A stretch of 64,000 nt of DNA from Candidatus Baltobacteraceae bacterium (GTDB lineage Bacteria > Vulcanimicrobiota > Vulcanimicrobiia > Vulcanimicrobiales > Vulcanimicrobiaceae), in assembly GCA_036489885.1 (NCBI GenBank), contig DASXEW010000001.1, positions 62,001 to 126,000 of the forward strand. Reading direction: 5' to 3'. Shown here piece by piece: positions 2,609-11,726 of this stretch. Position numbers and translations under genes: made by a program. Every line of letters starts with the position of its first letter. The first letter of the stretch is position 1. The notes beneath the pieces are model-generated. The model ran no database searches, was not told the DNA's origin, and worked only from the letters and a program-made list of their open reading frames with translations.

Positions 2609-4543
2609 TTAGAACGCGAAGAGCGTTTGGAGGTAGATAGCGTTCTTGGTGTCGCCGGAGATATAGCATCCGGGGCACGTCGAGCTACCTGCCGGAATTG
2701 CAGTACCGTTCAGGATCGTATGACGCTGAAGGATAATCGCAATGTCCGCGTTGTTCGCGATCTTGTAGTGCAAGCTACCGTAAACGATCTGGTAGCCCGC
2801 CGGGTTGCCGACATAGATCGGGAAGTAGGTCGTGGTCGACGTGATGCCGCCCTCGACTGACTCACCGTTGAAGCCGGTCGCGATGTAACCGATGTCACCC
2901 CATGGCGTGCCTTTTCCGCCGGCGTTGTTGCCGAGCGTCACGACGCCCCAGAGGCCGTTGGGTTGTGACCACGTCGCGCCCGTGAACGGGTCGTTTCCGA
3001 AGTGGTGCACGCCTTCAACGTTGACGTGGAGATAATCGCTCATGCGATAGGTCAGGAACACTGAGCCGAACGTCATGTTCGTTCCGTGGAACGCCGGGCA
3101 GCCCGTCGTCGTCAGCGTTGCCGCTAACTGGATGCCGCAGTATGCGCCGGTGACTTGCGTACCCGTGATTGTGCTCAACACGGGGGCACCTTTCACGAAT
3201 CCGTTACCCGATGCCTGATAGACCATCGGAGCCGAAGGATCCCAGAGCGTTTCGGAGTTGCCGATTTCCGAGACCCATGCTGCGCCGATGTTCAAGTGCT
3301 TCGGCATGATGTCGTAGCTGACTTGACCCCAGAGCTGCTGCTGCGTGATATGCGTAGCATTGCCTTGAAGTGAAGGCTGTCCGACACCGTAACCGCCTTC
3401 GATCCGCAACGTTGCCAGCGGTCCGCTCGTCGGAGCGTAACCGATCAGGCCGCCGTTGAAGTAGTCGGAGTAGGTCAGGTTGACGGGTTGTCCGCCGAGG
3501 TCGCTGCCCCCGTCGCCTTGGACGAGACGTCCGCCCTGCACGTAGAAGCCGCCGGGCGTGTGCCACGTCAGCTGCGCGATGTTGAGGCGGAACGTTTCAT
3601 TCGAAGGATAGTCCGAGCCAACCGGACAGGTCGTCGCGCTCGCAGGGAGCGGAGCGGCCTGAGCCGCGAGGCTCGTGCAGTAGAACGGAGCGCTTCCCGA
3701 ATTACCGATCGTCGCTGCCGGAGCGCCGTAGTTCGGCGTTTCCATGTAGTAGCGATTTTCGAGACGGAAGATGTAGCTGACGTTCGGATCGATGTCGCCC
3801 GTGAAGAGCAACCGGTTGACCATATAGGCCGTACCGTACGTTTCCGAACCGGTATACGACGCGTTTTGTCCAGCGACGCCGCCCGGGCTTCCGAGCGAGT
3901 CGTTGCTGACGAGACGCGTTCCCTGAACGATCGCACCGCCGGCCGGTGCGTTGATCGCCATGCCGTTCGTCGTCGAACTAGCTGCCGGACCGTTGAAGGC
4001 CGACACCGAGTCCTGATACGAGCCAGGCGCGCGCAGGAAGGTGTACAGGTGGAATTGTTGCCGCTTGAGCAGCGTCGAATCCGCCCGCTCGGCGGCATCG
4101 ATCGCTGCAACCTTGGTATCGAGCGCGGCTACGTGATCTTGCACTGCCTTGAGCTCGGCACCGAAGGCATCGACGAGCTTTTTGAGCGTCGCGATGTCGG
4201 CTGCATTCTGTTTCTGACCAGCCGCGATTTGTGCTTCCATCTTATCGACGGCGCGATTGATCAGGACGGCCATCTCATAGCGCGTCATCGGGCGGTTGCC
4301 CTCGAACTTGCCATTCGGATAGCCTTCGACAAGACCGTCGGCGGCGAGCGCCTTTACGGCTTGGTACGCCCAGCTATTAGCCGGAACGTCTGAGAATGGA
4401 TTACCGCTTTGAGCAACAGCCGTGCCGTTGCTGTCGTCTTGCGTGGCCTGTTGCGCGAACACGGGGCTCGTGCACATTGCTGCTATTCCTAGTAATATCG
4501 CAGCGACCCGCAAGCCGACGATGAGTCGGCGTAGTTGTGACAA
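2609..4543 (-). CDS. SLH-domain outer-membrane porin
   Basis: A 644-residue exported protein. An N-terminal signal peptide ends at VFAQ (about residue 31). One S-layer-homology motif spans about residues 48-100 (NPFSDVPANSWAYQAVKALA ... GYPNGKFEGNRPMTRYEMAV). A coiled-coil stretch of ~45 residues follows, rich in alternating A, K and D. The remaining ~490 residues are an amphipathic, Gly/Asn/Tyr-rich beta-barrel ending in the aromatic YLQTLFAF expected for outer-membrane insertion. This architecture is that of cyanobacterial and Deinococcus/Negativicute-type SLH porins, where the SLH domain ties the outer membrane to the cell wall. The start is TTG at 4543, seven bases after GAGGG; the binding site sits in a hairpin loop. 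Single gene with its own terminator at 2551-2584. Confidence 0.88.
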   Translation of the reverse strand: MSQLRRLIVGLRVAAILLGIAAMCTSPVFAQQATQDDSNGTAVAQSGNPFSDVPANSWAYQAVKALAADGLVEGYPNGKFEGNRPMTRYEMAVLINRAVDKMEAQIAAGQKQNAADIATLKKLVDAFGAELKAVQDHVAALDTKVAAIDAAERADSTLLKRQQFHLYTFLRAPGSYQDSVSAFNGPAASSTTNGMAINAPAGGAIVQGTRLVSNDSLGSPGGVAGQNASYTGSETYGTAYMVNRLLFTGDIDPNVSYIFRLENRYYMETPNYGAPAATIGNSGSAPFYCTSLAAQAAPLPASATTCPVGSDYPSNETFRLNIAQLTWHTPGGFYVQGGRLVQGDGGSDLGGQPVNLTYSDYFNGGLIGYAPTSGPLATLRIEGGYGVGQPSLQGNATHITQQQLWGQVSYDIMPKHLNIGAAWVSEIGNSETLWDPSAPMVYQASGNGFVKGAPVLSTITGTQVTGAYCGIQLAATLTTTGCPAFHGTNMTFGSVFLTYRMSDYLHVNVEGVHHFGNDPFTGATWSQPNGLWGVVTLGNNAGGKGTPWGDIGYIATGFNGESVEGGITSTTTYFPIYVGNPAGYQIVYGSLHYKIANNADIAIILQRHTILNGTAIPAGSSTCPGCYISGDTKNAIYLQTLFAF

Positions 4544-4563
4544 GTTTGTACCCTCTTACAAAC
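4544..4563 (-). promoter_or_regulatory. Hairpin presenting the ribosome binding site of the SLH porin
   Basis: GTTTGTA and TACAAAC (7-bp perfect arms) enclose AGAGGG, the Shine-Dalgarno sequence, directly in front of the TTG start codon at 4543. A second stem-loop, CCCGAAC/GTTCGGG at 4585-4602, lies further up in the presumed leader. Both suggest a structured 5' leader; a regulatory role is inference. Confidence 0.6.
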
Positions 4564-4734
4564 GTGCGAAGCGAGACCCAGCAACCCGAACCGTCGTTCG
4601 GGCCCCTAGTGTCTCTTCTATAACCTTTGGTAGCTTGCTTCGCTATTTAAAGAAATGACCAAAGTCACTCTTCAGCGACTTTTCCGGTCGCCTGGTCGTT
4701 CTTGGGGGGTGAGAATCCCTCCTGGGAGCTTAGA

Positions 4735-5310
4735 TTGAGAAACGCTCACCTTCTTGCCTTGTTAGCCGTAGGAGCAGCCTTAATTCTGGGGCTGGCGGCC
4801 TGGGCGGCTGTCCAAATCAGGGCCCACGAGAACCTGGCTTACGATTTCCGGTTGACGGACCAGGACGGGAAGCCGTTCCGGCTCTCGGACGAGCGCGGGC
4901 ATGCCGTCGCGATCTATTTCGGCTACACGCGCTGCACGGACACGTGCTTGACGACCATGGCGCACCTGGCAAGCGCCCGCCGGACAATGGGACCCGCCGG
5001 CGCACAGACCCGCGTTCTCTTCGTCACGATCGATCCGGACCACGATACGCCGAGCCTATTAAAGGAATACTTGGCGCACTTCGACCCGTCGTTCGTCGGC
5101 CTCACGGGGACCCGGGCCGAGCTTGCGCCCGTCTATCGCGCCTATCACGTTGCGTTCGAGGTGGCGCCGAAATCGCAGCGCGCGGGCGATCCGTTCGAGA
5201 TGCACACCTCGATGGTTTGGATCATCGATCGCAACGGGCATCCGGCCGGTTTTGCCGATTCGAGCGACTCCACGAGCGCGCTTGCGCAAGATTTGAGGGA
5301 AGCTTCGTAG
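4735..5310 (+). CDS. SCO1/SenC-type copper chaperone for cytochrome oxidase
   Basis: A 191-residue membrane-anchored thioredoxin-fold protein. One N-terminal transmembrane helix (about residues 5-27) is followed by the SCO domain with Cys67-x3-Cys71 (FGYTRCTDTC) and the conserved His157 (EMHTS), the three copper ligands. SCO proteins deliver copper to the CuA site of cytochrome oxidase subunit II, and ctaC is present 10 kb away. I chose TTG at 4735 because GGGAG lies six bases upstream; an in-frame TTG at 4702 lacks a binding site. The DUF2249-Crp gene begins 20 bases downstream and may be cotranscribed. Confidence 0.88.
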   Translation: MRNAHLLALLAVGAALILGLAAWAAVQIRAHENLAYDFRLTDQDGKPFRLSDERGHAVAIYFGYTRCTDTCLTTMAHLASARRTMGPAGAQTRVLFVTIDPDHDTPSLLKEYLAHFDPSFVGLTGTRAELAPVYRAYHVAFEVAPKSQRAGDPFEMHTSMVWIIDRNGHPAGFADSSDSTSALAQDLREAS

Positions 5311-5330
5311 CTCTGCCCTAAATTACGACC

Positions 5331-6251
5331 ATGGGAGGAGTGCTCGACCTCCGCAGCACGCCGTCGTGGGAACGTCACGGTCTCGTCCTTAGCGCGTTCT
5401 CCGATATGCGCGACCACGACACGCTGCAAGTGATCTACGAGTACGATCCGCTTCCGCTCCGCCGACGTTTCGAAGATGCGCAGGCACAACGCTACGTTTG
5501 GCTGCAGCGGCGGCTCGGTAGCGAACATTGGGAAGTCTCGCTTCGCAAACTGCCGGCATCGGCAAACGGATCGATCGCGGATTTCATGACCCGTTGTCCC
5601 ATCTTCGCCACCGCCGCGCAATCGACGCACGCTGCTCTTGCGTTCGCCGCGCAGTCGCGCGTGCTTCCACGCAAAACGATCATTGCCGAACAGGAAGCGT
5701 CGTGGCCTTTCTTGGGTGTGGTGCGAAAGGGCAAAGTGTTTGCGATCGTTGGAACGCCTGCCGGGCGCGAGCAAATTCTTTTCGAAGCGCTCGAGACCGA
5801 AGTCTTCGGCAACAATGCGATTCTCGACGGCGGCTCGACTTTTTCGCGCTTTGCGACACTCTCGGACGCAGCCGAGATCCTGTTGTTCCCGAAATTGGTC
5901 GTGCTCCAATTCGCAGAAGCTGATTCGCGTTTTGCGCTTGCGCTCGCGGCATCCTCAACCCAGCAGATGCGTACGATCGTCGATCTCGTGCACGGGCACG
6001 TATCGAAGAAAACGATCGCACGCGTCGCAAGTGCGCTCGTTCCATACGCTCCGAGCGAGAGCGGTCTGGCGCCGGTGGACCCCGTTCACTTGCCCTCGTT
6101 GCGCCTCACGCAGATCGCGGCGGCCACCGGCAGTGTCAAGGAAGTCGTGGCGCGCGCCGTTGCCGATCTCGAGCTGGCGAGTGCAATTCGTCGTGTACGC
6201 GGCCGCATCGCTTATATCGACCGTTTGAAGTTGACCTCATTCGCCTCGTAG
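5331..6251 (+). CDS. DUF2249-Crp/Fnr fusion transcription regulator
   Basis: A 306-residue protein with two parts. Residues ~4-75 match the DUF2249 pattern: LDLRSTPSWERHGLVLSAF, then DHDTLQVIYEYDPLPLRRRF and SEHWEVSLRKL. Residues ~85-300 form a Crp/Fnr regulator: a cyclic-nucleotide-binding jelly roll (VVRKGKVFAIVGTPAGREQI), then a winged helix-turn-helix (LRLTQIAAATGSVKEVVARA). No Cys cluster typical of Fnr is seen. DUF2249 domains are usually small separate proteins near respiratory, hemerythrin or denitrification genes, so this fusion may sense a redox or nitrogen-oxide signal (inference). The start ATG at 5331 has no Shine-Dalgarno; TAAATT lies ~12 bases before it, so the mRNA could be leaderless. 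Confidence 0.78.
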   Translation: MGGVLDLRSTPSWERHGLVLSAFSDMRDHDTLQVIYEYDPLPLRRRFEDAQAQRYVWLQRRLGSEHWEVSLRKLPASANGSIADFMTRCPIFATAAQSTHAALAFAAQSRVLPRKTIIAEQEASWPFLGVVRKGKVFAIVGTPAGREQILFEALETEVFGNNAILDGGSTFSRFATLSDAAEILLFPKLVVLQFAEADSRFALALAASSTQQMRTIVDLVHGHVSKKTIARVASALVPYAPSESGLAPVDPVHLPSLRLTQIAAATGSVKEVVARAVADLELASAIRRVRGRIAYIDRLKLTSFAS

Positions 6252-6295
6252 ACGAAGCGCGCCGGCAAGAACGCCGCGCACGTTCGCGGCGGCTG

Positions 6296-7195
6296 GTGCG
6301 GCGTTCGATGTTATTCGTTCCGGCCAATGTTCCGCGTTACATCGAGCGCGCGCACGAACGCGGCGCCGATGCAATCATACTCGATCTCGAAGATTCGGTA
6401 CCGGAAAGCGAAAAGGGGTCGGCTCGAACCGTGTTGCGTGCGGCATATGCCGGCGTGAGCCGCAATGGCGCCGACGTCTTGGTGCGTGTCAACAAACCGT
6501 TCGAGCAGCTCATTTTGGATTTGGACGCCGCGATCGCTACCGGCGTCAACGGGATTCTCTTTCCGAAGCTCGAGACGGCGCAAGAGCTGGCGATTCTCGA
6601 TGCACTGATCCACGAGCGAGAGCTTGCGGCAGGCCTATCGTCCGGATCGGTCGGCGTGCTGTGCGCGATCGAAAGTGCGCGCGGCGTCTTGAACGTCAAC
6701 GAGATCGTCGCGGAGTGCGAGCGCGTAGAGCGCGTCTTCGGTATCTCGTACGGCGCAGAAGATGCAACCGAGGAGCTCGGCGTCGAGACCACGCTCGAAG
6801 GCTGGGAGCGCTTCTACGGCAACGCGCTTTCGGTGCAAGCCGCTGCGGCAGCCGGAGTTCAAGCCTACGGACGTCTCGGCAGCGCCTTCGATTTTCGCGA
6901 CTTGACCGAATATGAAGAGTCGGCAGTCCGCTCGGCGCAATTCGGGTTCAAAGGCGCGTCGTGCATTCACCCGGCGCAAGTTCCGGTGCTCAACCGCGCG
7001 TTCTCGCCGAGCGCCGAACAAGTCGAGCGCGCGCATAAGACGATCGAGCTGATGCAAGAAGCGTTGCGAGGCGGGCGCGCATCCGCGAGCCTCAATGGGC
7101 GCATGATCGATACGCCGACGCTGCGGCGTGCCGAGCGCATTCTGGAACGTCAGGCAGCAATCGAGCAGAAGGAGGCGCGTAAGGTCGCGAGATAG
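6296..7195 (+). CDS. CitE-like CoA ester lyase (HpcH/HpaI family)
   Basis: A 299-residue TIM-barrel lyase. The start RRSMLFVPANVPRYIERA, the metal-site segment AIILDLEDSVPESEK, the RVN substrate motif (VRVNKP), FPKLETA, and the second metal site near AIESARGVLNVNEI and SYGAEDATEELG are all typical of citrate-lyase beta / malyl-CoA lyase relatives. The C-terminal GASCIHPAQVPVLNRAFSPS is also characteristic. Such enzymes cleave or form (3S)-malyl-CoA, citramalyl-CoA or similar beta-hydroxyacyl-CoA thioesters in the cytoplasm. Which substrate is used here cannot be read from the sequence. GTG at 6296 is the best start. The gene is followed within 20 bases by an ABC importer and may be part of that operon. 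Confidence 0.8.
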   Translation: MRRSMLFVPANVPRYIERAHERGADAIILDLEDSVPESEKGSARTVLRAAYAGVSRNGADVLVRVNKPFEQLILDLDAAIATGVNGILFPKLETAQELAILDALIHERELAAGLSSGSVGVLCAIESARGVLNVNEIVAECERVERVFGISYGAEDATEELGVETTLEGWERFYGNALSVQAAAAAGVQAYGRLGSAFDFRDLTEYEESAVRSAQFGFKGASCIHPAQVPVLNRAFSPSAEQVERAHKTIELMQEALRGGRASASLNGRMIDTPTLRRAERILERQAAIEQKEARKVAR

Positions 7196-7215: not shown

Positions 7216-8490
7216 GTGACGAAACGCTTATCGCTCGGGTTCGTTTCGGTTATCGTCGTCGCTGCCGGCATTGCGACGCTTTTCTCCGGAATGCGCGCGC
7301 ACGCCGCGCCGCCACCCATCAAGATCGGGGTCATCGTTCCGCTGACCGGAGTATCGGCTCCGAGCGGACAGGCGATGAAAGCTGCGATCGAGCTTGCTGC
7401 CAAGATCGTCAACGAAGGCAACAGCAAGGATCTCGCTCCGCTACCGTTGACCTCGTCGGCCGGATTACCGAATCTCGGCGGCGCGACGATCGAACCGATC
7501 TTTGCGGACAGCCAAGGCAATCCGTCCGTCGGGCAAACGCAAGCCGTGCGTCTGGTCACGCAAGAGCACGTGGTTGCGCTATTCGGCTCGTATCAATCCG
7601 GCGTCACGAAGACGACCAGCGAAGTCGCGGAGCGTTACGGGATCCCATTCGTGTGCGGTGATTCCGTCGCAGCCGACCTGACCGAGCGCGGCTACAAGAC
7701 GTTCTTCCGCGTCACGCCCGCGATTACGGAATTCGCGAAAGTCTACATGTCGTTCTTCGACGATCTGAAGAAGCAAGGCAAAAACATCAAAACGATTGCG
7801 GTCGTCCACGAGAACACGGACTACGGAACTGCCGTCGGCGACGCAATGGAAGCCGTAACCAAAGGCACGGCCTATCAAATCGTCGCACGCATCCCGTACA
7901 CGGCCAGCGCAACCGACCTTTCGGCTGAAGTGAACCAGCTCAAAGCCAAGAAGCCGGACGCGGTGCTCTTCGCGAGCTACACGTCCGACTCGATCCTGTT
8001 TGCCAAGACGATGAACGAGCTCGGCTTCACGGCGCCGGCGATCATCGGCGATGATTCAGGATTCGTCGATGGTACGTTCCTGAAAACGTCGTCATCGATC
8101 ATGGAAGGCGCAATGAGCCGCTCGTCATGGGCGCCGCCCAAACCCGGAACGCCGGCCTATAAGATCAATCAGATGTACAAGGCGATGGGTTTCGACTTCG
8201 ATACGTTCGAGGCGGCCGCGCGCGACATCCAGGGCTTCTGGGTGCTGATGGACGCGATCAATCGCGCCAAATCGACAAACCCGGATGCGGTCATCGCTGC
8301 GTTGCACGCGACGAATCTCTCGCCCCAGCAGCTGCTCTTGCCGTATCACGGAGTGAAGTTCGACGCAAAGGGACAGAACTTCGAGGGCGCAGCCATCATG
8401 GAGCAGATTCAGGGCGGCAAGTACGTCGTCGTCTGGCCTGCATCGTACGCGCAAGCCAAGCTCGAGTGGCCGTTCGTCGGCAAGAAGTAA
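7216..8490 (+). CDS. livK: Branched-chain-type ABC transporter, substrate-binding protein (system 1)
   Basis: A 424-residue periplasmic-binding protein of the type I (LivK) fold. A signal peptide ends around MRAHAA (residue ~31). The mature start IKIGVIVPLTGVSAPSGQAM and the segments LFGSYQSGVTKTTSEVAE and TIAVVHENTDYGTAVGDAME are characteristic. This family binds branched-chain amino acids but also many organic acids, amides and aromatics. GTG at 7216 is preceded by AGGAGGG with a five-base gap. First gene of a five-gene importer (livKHMGF). The CitE-like lyase upstream suggests a carboxylic acid ligand, but that is only inference. Confidence 0.88.
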   Translation: MTKRLSLGFVSVIVVAAGIATLFSGMRAHAAPPPIKIGVIVPLTGVSAPSGQAMKAAIELAAKIVNEGNSKDLAPLPLTSSAGLPNLGGATIEPIFADSQGNPSVGQTQAVRLVTQEHVVALFGSYQSGVTKTTSEVAERYGIPFVCGDSVAADLTERGYKTFFRVTPAITEFAKVYMSFFDDLKKQGKNIKTIAVVHENTDYGTAVGDAMEAVTKGTAYQIVARIPYTASATDLSAEVNQLKAKKPDAVLFASYTSDSILFAKTMNELGFTAPAIIGDDSGFVDGTFLKTSSSIMEGAMSRSSWAPPKPGTPAYKINQMYKAMGFDFDTFEAAARDIQGFWVLMDAINRAKSTNPDAVIAALHATNLSPQQLLLPYHGVKFDAKGQNFEGAAIMEQIQGGKYVVVWPASYAQAKLEWPFVGKK

Positions 8491-8496
8491 CACGTC

Positions 8497-9366
8497 ATTC
8501 AGCTCGTCCAAATCCTCATTGACGGGCTGCTCTTAGGTGCCGTTTACGCGCTGATCTCAGTCGGCTTGACGCTGATCTGGGGGATGATGAACGTCCTCAA
8601 CTTCGCGCACGGCGAGTTTGTAACGCTCGGCATGTTCACGGCCTTCCTGGCGTTTTCGTTTTGGCATACGGGACCGCTCGTATTCATACCGCTGGCGGCA
8701 ATCGTGCTTTTCGTCATCGGTCAGGTCGTTTATTACGCGCTGATTCGTGACGTGATGCGCGGCCCGATGTTCGCACAGGTCCTCGCGACGTTCGGCTTGC
8801 TGTTGTTCATCCGGTACATGCTCTTCTGGATATTCTCGCCCAACTATCGAACCTTGCCCTCGACGTTGCTGGGCGGTACGGCGCATATCGACGGGTTGTA
8901 CGTCAGTTATCCGAAGCTGATCGCCGCGCTGGTTGCGATCGCGCTCACCGCCGCCGTATACTATCTCCTGGTTCGCACGCAGATCGGCAGTCAAATGCTC
9001 GCAGTCGCGGAAGATCGTGAGGCTGCGCGTTTGATGGGCATCGATCCCGACCGGGTGCAAGCACTGGCGTGGGGAATCTCGGCGGCATGCGCAGGCGTCG
9101 CCGGAGCACTGCTTGCAACGTTCTATTATATTTCGCCTGAGGTCGGCGGGACGTTCGTACTGTTCGCATTCGTCGCCGTGACGCTCGGCGGTTTCGGGAG
9201 CGTGCCCGGCGCAATGCTGGCCGGACCGATCATCGGTGTCGTGCAGGTCGCGACGGGATACTACACGAGCCCACAATTCGCCGAGATCGCCGTGTTCACG
9301 CTGTTCATCTTGGTCTTGTGGCTGCGTCCGCAAGGTCTGCTCGGCCGAAGCATCGGGGGAACATGA
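8497..9366 (+). CDS. livH: Branched-chain-type ABC transporter permease LivH (system 1), start codon uncertain
   Basis: About 289 residues, eight or so transmembrane helices, with the LivH hallmarks LLLGAVYALISVGLTLIWG and MNVLNFAHGEFVTLGM at the N-terminus and LGGFGSVPGAMLAGPIIG near the end. The conserved N-terminal helix is encoded from about 8497, yet no ATG, GTG or TTG exists in frame between the livK stop (8490) and a TTG at 8566, which would cut the helix. Possible starts are ATT at 8497, a CTG at 8527 or 8551, or an error in the sequence. I give 8497 as the start of homology. Overlaps livM by four bases (ATGA). Confidence 0.8.
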   Translation: MQLVQILIDGLLLGAVYALISVGLTLIWGMMNVLNFAHGEFVTLGMFTAFLAFSFWHTGPLVFIPLAAIVLFVIGQVVYYALIRDVMRGPMFAQVLATFGLLLFIRYMLFWIFSPNYRTLPSTLLGGTAHIDGLYVSYPKLIAALVAIALTAAVYYLLVRTQIGSQMLAVAEDREAARLMGIDPDRVQALAWGISAACAGVAGALLATFYYISPEVGGTFVLFAFVAVTLGGFGSVPGAMLAGPIIGVVQVATGYYTSPQFAEIAVFTLFILVLWLRPQGLLGRSIGGT

Positions 9367-10319
9367 CGCGGCCGCGTCTCACGCTCATCGTCTGCGCGCT
9401 GGCTCTCGTCGTTTACCCGTTCATCATGACGAGCACGTTCGGTCAACGGGTCGGCGTGCTGGTGCTTCTTGCGGCGCTTTCGGGAACCGCTTGGAACATC
9501 GTCGGCGGTTACGCAGAACAGGTTTCGATCGGTCACGCCGTGTTCTACGGCATCGGCGCCTACGTGCCGCTGCTCTTCTATACGCAGACTAAGGGCAATC
9601 CGGTTCTGATGATTCCGTTTGCCATGGCGCTCGCGGCGCTCGTCGCGCTATGCATCGGAATTCCGACCTTCCGGCTACGCGGGCATTATTTTTCGATGGC
9701 GACGCTGGCACTCGGTGAGCTCTTCCTGCTGGGCGTGACGATTACGCCGGCGCTCGGTGGCGCCAGCGGTCTCTCGGGGCCGGTCGAGCAGAATCCGTGG
9801 GAACTTTCGATGCGCAGCCCGCTGCCGTACTATTACGTCCTTCTCGTCGCGCTTGCGCTGATGATCGGTCTCGTTGCCTGGCTCGAACGTAACCGCGTCG
9901 GTTATTATCTACGCGCCATCCAATCCAGCGAGCGCGCAGCGCGAAGCCTGGGTGTGCCGGTTTATCGCTACAAGCTGATCGCATTGATGATCAGTGCCGC
10001 GTGCACGGCGCTGGCAGGGTCGTTCTACGCGCTTTTTGTCGGCTTCGTCAATCCGGACAGCGTTTTCGGACTGCTCGTTTCCGTGCAGATGGTAATCGTC
10101 GCAACGCTCGGCGGCGCGGGCACGCTTTACGGCCCGCTGCTTGGGGCTGTGATTCTCGTTCCGACGCAAGAGTGGGCAAATGCTACCTTCGGCGGAGGTG
10201 GAACCGGACTGTCGTACGTCGTTTACGGCGCCGTCATCATGGTGCTCACGCGCTTCGAACCCGGCGGCTTGCTCGGTCTTTGGAACCGGTTGCGATTCCG
10301 TGCTGCTGCAAGCGCGTAA
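9363..10319 (+). CDS. livM: Branched-chain-type ABC transporter permease LivM (system 1)
   Basis: 318 residues with about nine to ten membrane helices. Typical LivM segments are seen: GYAEQVSIGHAVFYGIGAY, IGIPTFRLRGHYFSMATLAL, and the cytoplasmic loop RAIQSSERAARSLGVPVYRYK, which contacts the ATPases (EAA-like). The ATG at 9363 overlaps the livH stop and has GGGGGA just upstream, so translation is coupled. Forms the membrane channel with LivH. Confidence 0.88.
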   Translation: MTRPRLTLIVCALALVVYPFIMTSTFGQRVGVLVLLAALSGTAWNIVGGYAEQVSIGHAVFYGIGAYVPLLFYTQTKGNPVLMIPFAMALAALVALCIGIPTFRLRGHYFSMATLALGELFLLGVTITPALGGASGLSGPVEQNPWELSMRSPLPYYYVLLVALALMIGLVAWLERNRVGYYLRAIQSSERAARSLGVPVYRYKLIALMISAACTALAGSFYALFVGFVNPDSVFGLLVSVQMVIVATLGGAGTLYGPLLGAVILVPTQEWANATFGGGGTGLSYVVYGAVIMVLTRFEPGGLLGLWNRLRFRAAASA

Positions 10320-11019
10320 TCTTTCGAAGCTGTTCGGCGGTCTCGCTGCGGTCAACGACGTTTCGATCGACGTCGGGCCAAACGAGATCGTCGGCTTGAT
10401 CGGACCGAACGGCGCAGGAAAATCGACGCTGTTCAACTGTTTGGCCGGCGACTATCGTCCGACGAAGGGTTCGATCGTCTTCGACGGCGTCGACGTAACG
10501 CGAGCGGAGCCGGAGCGCCGCGCGCGCCTCGGCATCGGGCGGACGTATCAAATTCCGCTCGCATTCGGGCGCATGAGCGTCGTCGATAACGTTGCGGTCG
10601 GGGCGTACCTTCGGGCGCGAACGCGTGCGAGTGCTATTGCGAAGGCTCACGAGATTCTCGCGCTGGTTGGACTCTCGGAGCGTCGCGACGCGTTCGGCGC
10701 TACGCTCGGAACGCTTGGACGCAAACGCCTCGAGATCGCACGTGCCCTCGCCACCGGGCCGCGCGTCTTGTTCTTGGATGAAACGCTTGCCGGGCTTACG
10801 CCCGTCGAGACCCAGGAAGCGATCGAGCTCATACGGCGCGTCCACTCATCGGGTATCGCGCTCGTGATCGTCGAGCACGTCATGGAAGTCATCATGGCGC
10901 TTGCGCAGCGCGTCGTGGTGATGGACGAAGGAAAAGTCATCGCGTCCGGTAGCGCGGAGGACGTCGTGCGCGATCCGCGCGTTGCGGAAGCCTACCTCGG
11001 ACGGCGAGCACAACGATGA
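10300..11019 (+). CDS. livG: Branched-chain-type ABC transporter ATPase LivG (system 1), atypical signature and Walker B
   Basis: 239 residues. Walker A is GPNGAGKST at about residues 33-41; the Q-loop region is RTYQIPLAF; the H-loop is IVEHVMEVI. The signature loop reads LGTLGRKRLEIARAL, where LivG normally has LSYGQQR before the same RLEIARAL. Walker B reads VLFLDETLAGL, with Thr in place of the usual Pro after the catalytic Glu. The ATPase still has the catalytic Glu and switch His, so activity is likely but the LSGGQ-type contact is unusual. GTG at 10300 overlaps livM by 20 bases; the next gene overlaps by ATGA. Confidence 0.85.
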   Translation: MLLQARNLSKLFGGLAAVNDVSIDVGPNEIVGLIGPNGAGKSTLFNCLAGDYRPTKGSIVFDGVDVTRAEPERRARLGIGRTYQIPLAFGRMSVVDNVAVGAYLRARTRASAIAKAHEILALVGLSERRDAFGATLGTLGRKRLEIARALATGPRVLFLDETLAGLTPVETQEAIELIRRVHSSGIALVIVEHVMEVIMALAQRVVVMDEGKVIASGSAEDVVRDPRVAEAYLGRRAQR

Positions 11020-11726
11020 GCCGTCTGCGCGTCAACAATATCGAAGTTCGTTACGGGGACCTCATCGGCGTCTCGCATGTATCGCTCGAGGTTCCTACCG
11101 GCGCCGTCGTGGCATTGATCGGCGCGAACGGATCGGGAAAGAGTACGACCCTCCGCGCAATCATCGGTCTCTCGACGCCGAGCGCGGGAACGATCGAATG
11201 GGACGATCGGCGAATCGACGGAATGAGTGCGAATGCAATCATTCGCTGCGGTCTGACGCTGGCGCCCGAAGGCTGGCGTCTTTTTGCGCAGCAGAGTGTC
11301 GAGCAGAATCTCCGTCTCGGCGCGACGATCTTGCGAAGCCGGACGCGAACCACCGAGCTCCTGACACGCGTCTACGATCTCTTTCCGCGATTACGCGAGC
11401 GCTACGCGCAAATCGCCGGGACGCTCTCAGGCGGCGAGCGCCAAATGCTTGCGATCGGACGCGCCTTGATGTCGGATCCGCAGCTTTTGATGCTCGACGA
11501 ACCGAGCCTCGGCTTAGCGCCCGTGATCGTCGAGCGGCTCTACGATACGATCGCGCAGCTCGCGCGCGATGGGCTCACGCTGCTTTTGGCCGAGCAGTCG
11601 ATCGAGCAGGCCTTGGATGTTGCAACGTACGGCTACGTGTTGCAGGCCGGAGCCACGATCATCGAGGGCAAGCCGGAGGATCTGCGCGCCGATCCCGCAG
11701 TTCAGCACGCATATCTCGGCGTCTAG
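11016..11726 (+). CDS. livF: Branched-chain-type ABC transporter ATPase LivF (system 1)
   Basis: 236 residues with an orthodox set of motifs: Walker A GANGSGKST, signature LSGGERQML, Walker B LLMLDEPSLGLAP, and H-loop LAEQSIEQAL. EGWRLFAQQSVEQNL matches the LivF-specific region. It forms a heterodimer with LivG to power uptake. The ATG at 11016 overlaps the livG stop (ATGA). The stop codon overlaps the stop of the convergent qcrC (CTAG at 11723-11726), so no terminator separates them. Confidence 0.9.
   Translation: MSRLRVNNIEVRYGDLIGVSHVSLEVPTGAVVALIGANGSGKSTTLRAIIGLSTPSAGTIEWDDRRIDGMSANAIIRCGLTLAPEGWRLFAQQSVEQNLRLGATILRSRTRTTELLTRVYDLFPRLRERYAQIAGTLSGGERQMLAIGRALMSDPQLLMLDEPSLGLAPVIVERLYDTIAQLARDGLTLLLAEQSIEQALDVATYGYVLQAGATIIEGKPEDLRADPAVQHAYLGV

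Follow-up and report, generated by a model that had tools for sequence, protein, structure and literature searches.

What might a DUF2249 domain do at the front of a Crp/Fnr-type DNA-binding protein, and which genes would such a protein control? The question is raised by a gene in a 64-kb stretch of DNA (the window, by which we always mean the whole stretch). A sequence-only reading had described the product of this gene as DUF2249 in its N-terminal part with a Crp-type regulator as the rest, had placed it next to a copper chaperone and had proposed DUF2249 as a sensory input.

The window protein is a DUF2249-Crp/Fnr fusion

The open reading frame at 5331-6251 is on the + strand, is open throughout and encodes a product of 306 aa, in which we assign the following features.

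5331-6251, + strand: DUF2249-Crp/Fnr fusion regulator, 306 aa (from the ORF, Pfam, phmmer and the model)
5340-5549, + strand: DUF2249 domain, residues 4-73, with a predicted TusA/SirA-like beta-alpha-beta-alpha-beta-beta fold (PF10006, 42.4 bits; domain model pLDDT 89; Z 9-11)
5373-5378, + strand: R15-H16 motif of group B (see below), invariant in a 12-row (A1) and a 22-row (A2) alignment
5661-5921, + strand: Crp effector (cNMP-type) domain with a degenerate phosphate-binding cassette (Pfam; alignment with GlxR)
6021-6236, + strand: HTH_Crp_2 DNA-binding domain (Pfam; K270/E271/R275)

Pfam hmmscan matched PF10006 (DUF2249) to residues 4-73 over model positions 1-70 of 70, with an E value of 6.3e-11 and a score of 42.4 bits against a gathering cut-off of 29.5; the window protein thus carries a full-length DUF2249. 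The domain lies within residues 1-80, where its absence from a profile search had been named beforehand as grounds for giving up the claim. In the same protein the cNMP_binding (residues 111-197, 25.4 bits) and HTH_Crp_2 (residues 231-302, 20.7 bits) profiles score below their Pfam cut-offs of 27.5 and 27, respectively. Despite these scores the Crp identity is secured, because the best phmmer match of the window protein among solved Crp-family chains is 7pza (E 8e-08), the related fusion L201 lies above all three Pfam cut-offs (DUF2249, cNMP_binding and HTH_Crp_2), and residues ~77-306 of a whole-protein AlphaFold2 model (mean pLDDT 87, pTM 0.70) align with Crp/FNR structures at Z scores of 18-19. 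The protein therefore combines the cNMP-type effector barrel and C-terminal Crp HTH of the Crp/Fnr family, and both halves of the domain assignment in the sequence-only reading are confirmed. For the model, most whole-chain rows have an rmsd of ~12, which suggests an arrangement of barrel and HTH different from that in Crp/FNR structures. Within the HTH, we take K270, E271 and R275 to be the counterparts of CRP positions 180, 181 and 185.

The fusion is class-wide and falls into four groups

With the group-B fusion L077 as query, matches at E 1e-20 or better were obtained in 114 of the 117 genomes of the class (Vulcanimicrobiota/Ca. Eremiobacterota), the full length of the fusion being seen among the matches listed. 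A search with the window protein in a sample of 60 genomes gave matches in 54, comprising 54 of the 55 from the class and none of the five from other families of the phylum; DUF2249 itself is present in other phylum families (for example f4, f5, f8 and f11). DUF2249-Crp is a real, conserved architecture. The sequence-only reading had understated its reach, which is class-wide and in four groups; the fusion as a rare event is rejected by the 114 of 117 class genomes. Outside the class, a single contig scan with two peptide patterns, whose limited reach makes it no proof of absence elsewhere, returned full-length fusions only in Ca. Eremiobacterota/WPS-2 (Vulcanimicrobiota) or unassigned bacterial MAGs; in two Chloroflexi loci the match was confined to the Crp part, and in one Roseateles locus to DUF2249. 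The window genome (3.48 Mb, four contigs) has two DUF2249 matches over cut-off, both of them Crp fusions, and no stand-alone DUF2249 over cut-off, a third match reaching only 13.5 bits.

We first distinguished four groups by eye in the alignment. A tree of 76 fusions built by a quick method, from which four of 80 fusion-like ORFs had been dropped because their match to the window protein started after residue 15, contains groups A (41 rows), B (13, including the window copy), C (13) and D (9). In a careful 43-row tree, which used 9 of the 41 A rows and 6 of the 13 C rows and omitted one long group-B row, the split of A+C versus B+D is firm (100/99) and group B forms a single clade with support of 76/68. 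The window copy pairs with L200, to which it is 69% identical, at 100/100, and falls inside B weakly (86/73). The window copy thus probably belongs to group B, with moderate support. We also observed three DUF2249-Crp genes within 10 kb of one contig (L078:7420-16970), two of them in group B and one in group D on the 76-row tree.

In the group-B alignment R15 is present in 13 of 13 rows and H16 in 12, and the group mostly keeps this RH motif together with a DHEPRPLR stretch. H16 is retained in 10 of 13 rows of group C, 4 of 41 of group A and none of the nine of group D. Across all groups D6 and W67 are invariant, and R8 occurs in 73 of the 76 fusion rows. The window copy retains R15-H16 but reads EYDPLPL at the DHEPRPL stretch, where the histidine found in 11 of 13 group-B rows is Y38; because this histidine is lost, the ligand of the window copy may differ from that of group B. 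The presumed recognition residues of the HTH are mostly K/R-E in B, K-E in D and R-D in A and C.

No cAMP clasp or FNR cysteine set in the Crp part, and a predicted TusA-like fold for DUF2249

In an alignment with the cAMP binder GlxR, the GlxR cassette FGELSIFDPGPRTSSA is matched by FGNNAILDGGSTFSRFA in the window protein, in which the Arg-Thr pair is missing. The Arg-Ser/Thr of the cNMP cassette are, we assume, the residues that hold the cAMP phosphate; the clasp expected of a cAMP receptor such as CRP is absent from the window protein. FNR needs four cysteines for its [4Fe-4S] cluster. The window copy has one cysteine and group B conserves none. Sensing of the cAMP or FNR type by the window regulator was rejected on these grounds, the degenerate cassette and the missing FNR cysteines. 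Because the Crp part has neither the phosphate clasp nor the FNR cysteines, DUF2249 is the likeliest signal input, and these losses, together with the gene company described below, make it plausible that the domain is the sensor. A Cys-Pro at residue 89 was discarded as evidence, Cys89 being kept in only 8 of 13 group-B rows.

Since the Crp part fills a fold search with the whole protein, the DUF2249 domain was modelled separately. The domain model (pLDDT 89) has the order beta-alpha-beta-alpha-beta-beta, and its top structure is 8k1r, a TsuA-TsuB entry (Z 11.0, rmsd 1.7, 72 aligned). The SirA-like 3hz7 (Z 9.9, rmsd 2.1, 71 aligned) and TusA in 3lvj (Z 9.6, rmsd 2.3, 72 aligned) also match, and other folds (Alba and others) rank lower (Z at most 8.3). 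The predicted fold is thus that of the TusA sulfur carriers by comparison of the domain model (Z 9-11), while Foldseek alone is weak, with nothing reaching E 0.001 and a best match at E 4.8e-3. TusA sulfur carriers have a Cys-Pro motif at the start of helix 1, and we equate the position of its cysteine, by eye, with the region of residue 12 in the window protein. The window protein has Ser at position 12, and groups A and B have no cysteine at positions 9-17. Unlike the TusA/SirA-like proteins, which it resembles in the order of its elements and which rank best against its model, the window domain therefore lacks a cysteine at the presumed sulfur-carrier position, and identity to 3lvj, 3hz7 and 8k1r is 10-19%. 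Because the TusA cysteine is without counterpart, sulfur transfer by the DUF2249 domain is unlikely.

Group B occurs with an sNOR-type NO reductase

Group-B fusions, with 222 bits against L077 as the lower limit for the call, occur in 28 of the 117 genomes, and an sNOR-type oxidase (NOR) likewise in 28; both are present in 21 genomes, only the group-B fusion in 7, only the NOR in 7 and neither in 82 (Fisher p 1e-11, uncorrected for relatedness), with counts of both blurred by incomplete genomes. Genera g20 and g24 each have one group-B member on the tree and further members by score alone. Because kinship inflates such co-occurrence, we compared congeners. Within the eight genera that have both states, the NOR is present in 12 of 16 B-positive versus 3 of 44 B-negative genomes (p 5e-7); g24 supplies 7 of the 12, and without this genus the NOR is present in 5 of 8 versus 3 of 42 (p 0.0012). 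Linkage accompanies co-occurrence, the group-B fusion and the NOR lying at most 6 kb apart on one contig in 13 of the 21 genomes (five genera; one of the 13 is a NOR fragment).

All 37 aligned rows of NOR subunit I, some of them partial or repeated, have Asn where the window CtaD has the Tyr of HPEVY. Table A4 of PMC8756737 lists oxygen reductases with Tyr and both sNOR and CuANOR with Asn, so that sNOR and CuANOR are not told apart by this residue. The neighbour enzyme of the relatives, which is not encoded in the window, has both Asn for the active-site Tyr and a CuA-type subunit II.

We surveyed the neighbours in 12 group-B loci (one a 3-kb contig), with clusters from an all-against-all comparison. 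Stand-alone DUF2249 (clusters c35 and c96) is found in 7 of the 12; a DUF59/FeS_assembly_P protein and a divergent haem-copper oxidase subunit I with CuA-type subunit II (the NOR) in 4 each; a radical SAM protein in 3; a sco gene in 2; and membrane-type proteins without a Pfam match in 5 and 3. Around groups A, C and D the representatives of the gene clusters are mostly of housekeeping type, with a cytochrome c gene also present in D, and the fusion as such is therefore not tied to NO.

Other genes of these loci were noted. Two clusters of ~400-aa, hydrophobic-looking proteins lie beside group-B genes (L077:8474-9670 and L084:2313-3653); at the thresholds applied, neither matched any family of Pfam or NCBIfam, and a PDB match was also lacking for the L077 protein. 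The radical SAM gene at L084:7448-8548 is over cut-off for TIGR04053, with haem b and d1 synthesis families next best, and stands beside DUF2249 and NOR genes. DUF488 cluster genes (among them L076:8898-9269 and L078:12743-13336) occur in 4 of the 12 group-B loci.

The proposal that DUF2249 is a sensory input gains indirectly from the degenerate cAMP cassette, the missing FNR cysteines, the group-B RH motif and the linkage to NO reductase and stand-alone DUF2249; it is plausible and now better founded, through the relatives more than through the window itself. The same gene company would also suit a protein-docking domain whose partner (stand-alone DUF2249, DUF59 or another assembly protein) reports the status of a metal site or FeS cluster, in place of a small molecule. 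A TusA-fold protein is known to dock a partner, 3lvj being the IscS-TusA complex, and such partners would be at hand in the 7 loci with stand-alone DUF2249 and the 4 with a DUF59 protein, for a regulator that conserves no cysteine of its own. However, the window genome is without a stand-alone DUF2249 over cut-off, and DUF2249 is kept in all four groups despite their different neighbours, and we regard docking as unlikely.

The window copy lies beside sco

The genes around the window copy begin with sco.

4702-5310, + strand: sco (SCO1/SenC copper chaperone), first gene of a presumed operon (PF02630, E 7.2e-36; CxxxC in GYTRCTDTCL)

The fusion gene starts 20 bases after sco on the same strand, an HpcH/HpaI-type lyase gene lies 44 bases beyond the fusion gene, and a cytochrome bc complex and an aa3-type oxidase are encoded at 11.7-17.9 kb in the window. 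The copper chaperone seen next to the regulator in the sequence-only reading is indeed of the SCO1/SenC type. The L200 ortholog (69%) has a CusF-Sco gene 1.2 kb downstream in otherwise different surroundings, and proximity to sco thus recurs, with two cases being too few for a test. At L200:2793-3824 a single 343-aa protein carries a CusF domain ahead of a Sco domain. In the window, genes of a branched-chain amino-acid-type ABC transporter (by a look at the translations only) follow the lyase gene on the same strand at 7216-11726, and transcription of the sco operon may continue into them.

The window genome has two COX1 genes (534 and 519 bits), and the active-site letters given above were read for the window's own CtaD. 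Searches of this genome gave no match to an sNOR-type NOR and no NirK-like match at E 1e-30 or better; TIGR02376 matches 11 of the 117 genomes, none over cut-off and none in the window genome. A search for NnrS in the window genome was uninformative, its control having matched nowhere. In another genome, a NirK-like copper oxidase match at G050:C29:3294-4097 contains one internal TAG. Because the window genome is without matches to sNOR and NirK-like proteins and without a stand-alone DUF2249 over cut-off, an NO signal for the window copy is borrowed from its relatives.

This setting suggests a further alternative, in which the signal for window-type copies is copper or a failure of CuA assembly, their target is sco, and the NOR link of the relatives reflects the CuA of sNOR. 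The position of sco beside the window copy and of CusF-Sco 1.2 kb from its 69% ortholog would fit this idea, as would the CuA-type subunit II of the NOR and the presence of a member of this sco cluster at the G010 NOR locus. Yet the regulator has no conserved Cys, the sco cluster appears in only 2 of the 12 group-B loci, and passages of PMC11218638 and PMC6282519 tie stand-alone DUF2249 to nitrate/NO metabolism; a regulator of copper or CuA maturation is therefore improbable.

A candidate operator precedes sco

For a DUF2249-driven regulator, a candidate operator comes from the relatives. The palindrome TGAC-N4-GTCA was picked by eye upstream of NOR genes in two genera other than that of the window and then counted on the same regions. 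It is present in 8 of 29 regions upstream of NOR subunit II (2 of 15 genera, taking one per genus), 39-89 bases before the start, and the exact palindrome is missing from the other 21 regions and 13 genera. Because the motif was chosen from the same sequences, its recovery in 0 of 2000 single-base shuffles is no independent test. The window was searched after the motif had been chosen.

4656-4667, no strand assigned: candidate operator TGACCAAAGTCA, a perfect TGAC-N4-GTCA palindrome; the window's sole exact match, with its start 46 bases ahead of the sco ORF

One exact site was found in the 64-kb window and 0.98 is expected by chance. From the 40 exact sites of the window genome, 0.0018 would be expected in the 158-base stretch between ORFs upstream of sco. 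Mechanical ORF maps place 39 of the 40, 33 of them inside ORFs; four of the six outside ORFs, the window site included, are clear of an ORF start. A terminator-like hairpin at 4661-4682 also uses the right half of the 4656-4667 palindrome as an arm. A search of 4450-6400 for sigma-70-like promoters gave none, and self-palindromes upstream of fusion genes share no motif. The L200 ortholog has a one-mismatch site only, 90 bases upstream of the regulator, where 3.4 such sites are expected in the locus.

The loci of group B contain 12 sites in 166,706 bases versus 13 in 845,191 for A, C and D; in this count L078 is entered under B as well as D, a tandem repeat accounts for three of the 12, and several sites are inside genes. 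An exact site at most 350 bases upstream of its own start was found for 1 of 13 group-B fusion genes, so that the other candidate sites of group B precede other genes. At L083, AGCATGACAGTAGTCAGCAT occurs three times (7367, 7528 and 7689) with a spacing of 161 bases. Operators at cta/qcr were rejected, as the only exact window site is that at 4656 and sites with at most one mismatch are at chance level (23 found versus 22 expected). The effect on cta/qcr promoters suggested by the sequence-only reading is thus not supported, the only exact candidate operator in the window preceding sco.

Comparison with known systems and proposed mechanism

We take COG4309 to be the COG of DUF2249. In the passages of PMC1274295 that we draw on, COG4309 is linked to NO-reductase genes, and TTGACnnnnGTCAA sites for HcpR adjoin hcp and norB in two cyanobacteria. 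The fusion resembles DNR, NnrR and HcpR (those passages of PMC1274295) in its Crp fold, in the NO-reductase linkage of its group-B relatives and in a TTGAC-N4-GTCAA-like candidate operator as for HcpR, the tie to their NO-dependent control lying in gene linkage and palindrome. Unlike them, it has an extra N-terminal DUF2249 and shows no sequence sign of an FeS site, and the NOR linked to group B is of the sNOR type, which is absent from the window genome. For DUF2249 itself, passages of PMC6282519 propose Thermus DrpA/DrpB as nitrate sensors and mention the domain with hemerythrin and response-regulator domains, and passages of PMC11218638 report four DUF2249 genes induced on denitrification in Haloferax; the DUF2249 passages of these two papers describe no DUF2249-Crp fusion. 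The Thermus and Haloferax proteins share with ours the Pfam domain, a respiratory or nitrogen-oxide setting and a proposed signalling role, whereas they are stand-alone, duplicated or joined to DUF1858 or a P-loop NTPase and here the domain is part of a Crp-type DNA-binding protein.

We tentatively propose, as quite possible, a one-component regulator with DUF2249 as its input that acts on its own sco operon under NO or respiratory stress. The protein would be a homodimeric Crp/Fnr one-component transcription factor whose signal enters through the N-terminal TusA-fold DUF2249 and not through cAMP or an FeS cluster. Binding or modification at a DUF2249 pocket around R15-H16 would be passed to the effector barrel, from there to the long dimer helix and on to the HTH, which would bind TGAC-N4-GTCA. 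In group-B relatives the signal would be NO or a nitrogen oxide akin to it, and the regulator would control genes for the sNOR-type NO reductase and for DUF2249/DUF59 proteins. The window organism is without such a NOR; there the copy would have been kept beside sco, presumably in a single operon with it, and would most likely regulate this operon and with it copper delivery to the CuA oxidase; the direction of this regulation, like the use of the operator, we infer. A wider claim is rather doubtful, namely that DUF2249 is a TusA-fold sensor of NO or nitrogen oxides, that the class-wide Crp fusion family replaces haem or FeS sensing with it, and that the window copy has been repurposed to oxidase copper delivery. 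Very improbable is a structural relic (a dimer or folding aid), with either the degenerate Crp barrel as the sensing part or no sensing in a constitutive protein, since the domain, although kept in A and D where little of the RH motif survives (H16 in 4 of 41 and 0 of 9), has the invariant D6 and W67 and the nearly constant R8 in all groups and mostly keeps RH and DHEPRPLR in group B.

DUF2249 has no assigned function, though it recurs near denitrification genes. Its natural fusion to a DNA-binding protein, as in the regulator proposed here, makes the question of its ligand a simple matter of DNA binding in vitro, for which a whole bacterial class offers natural variants with the RH motif kept or lost.
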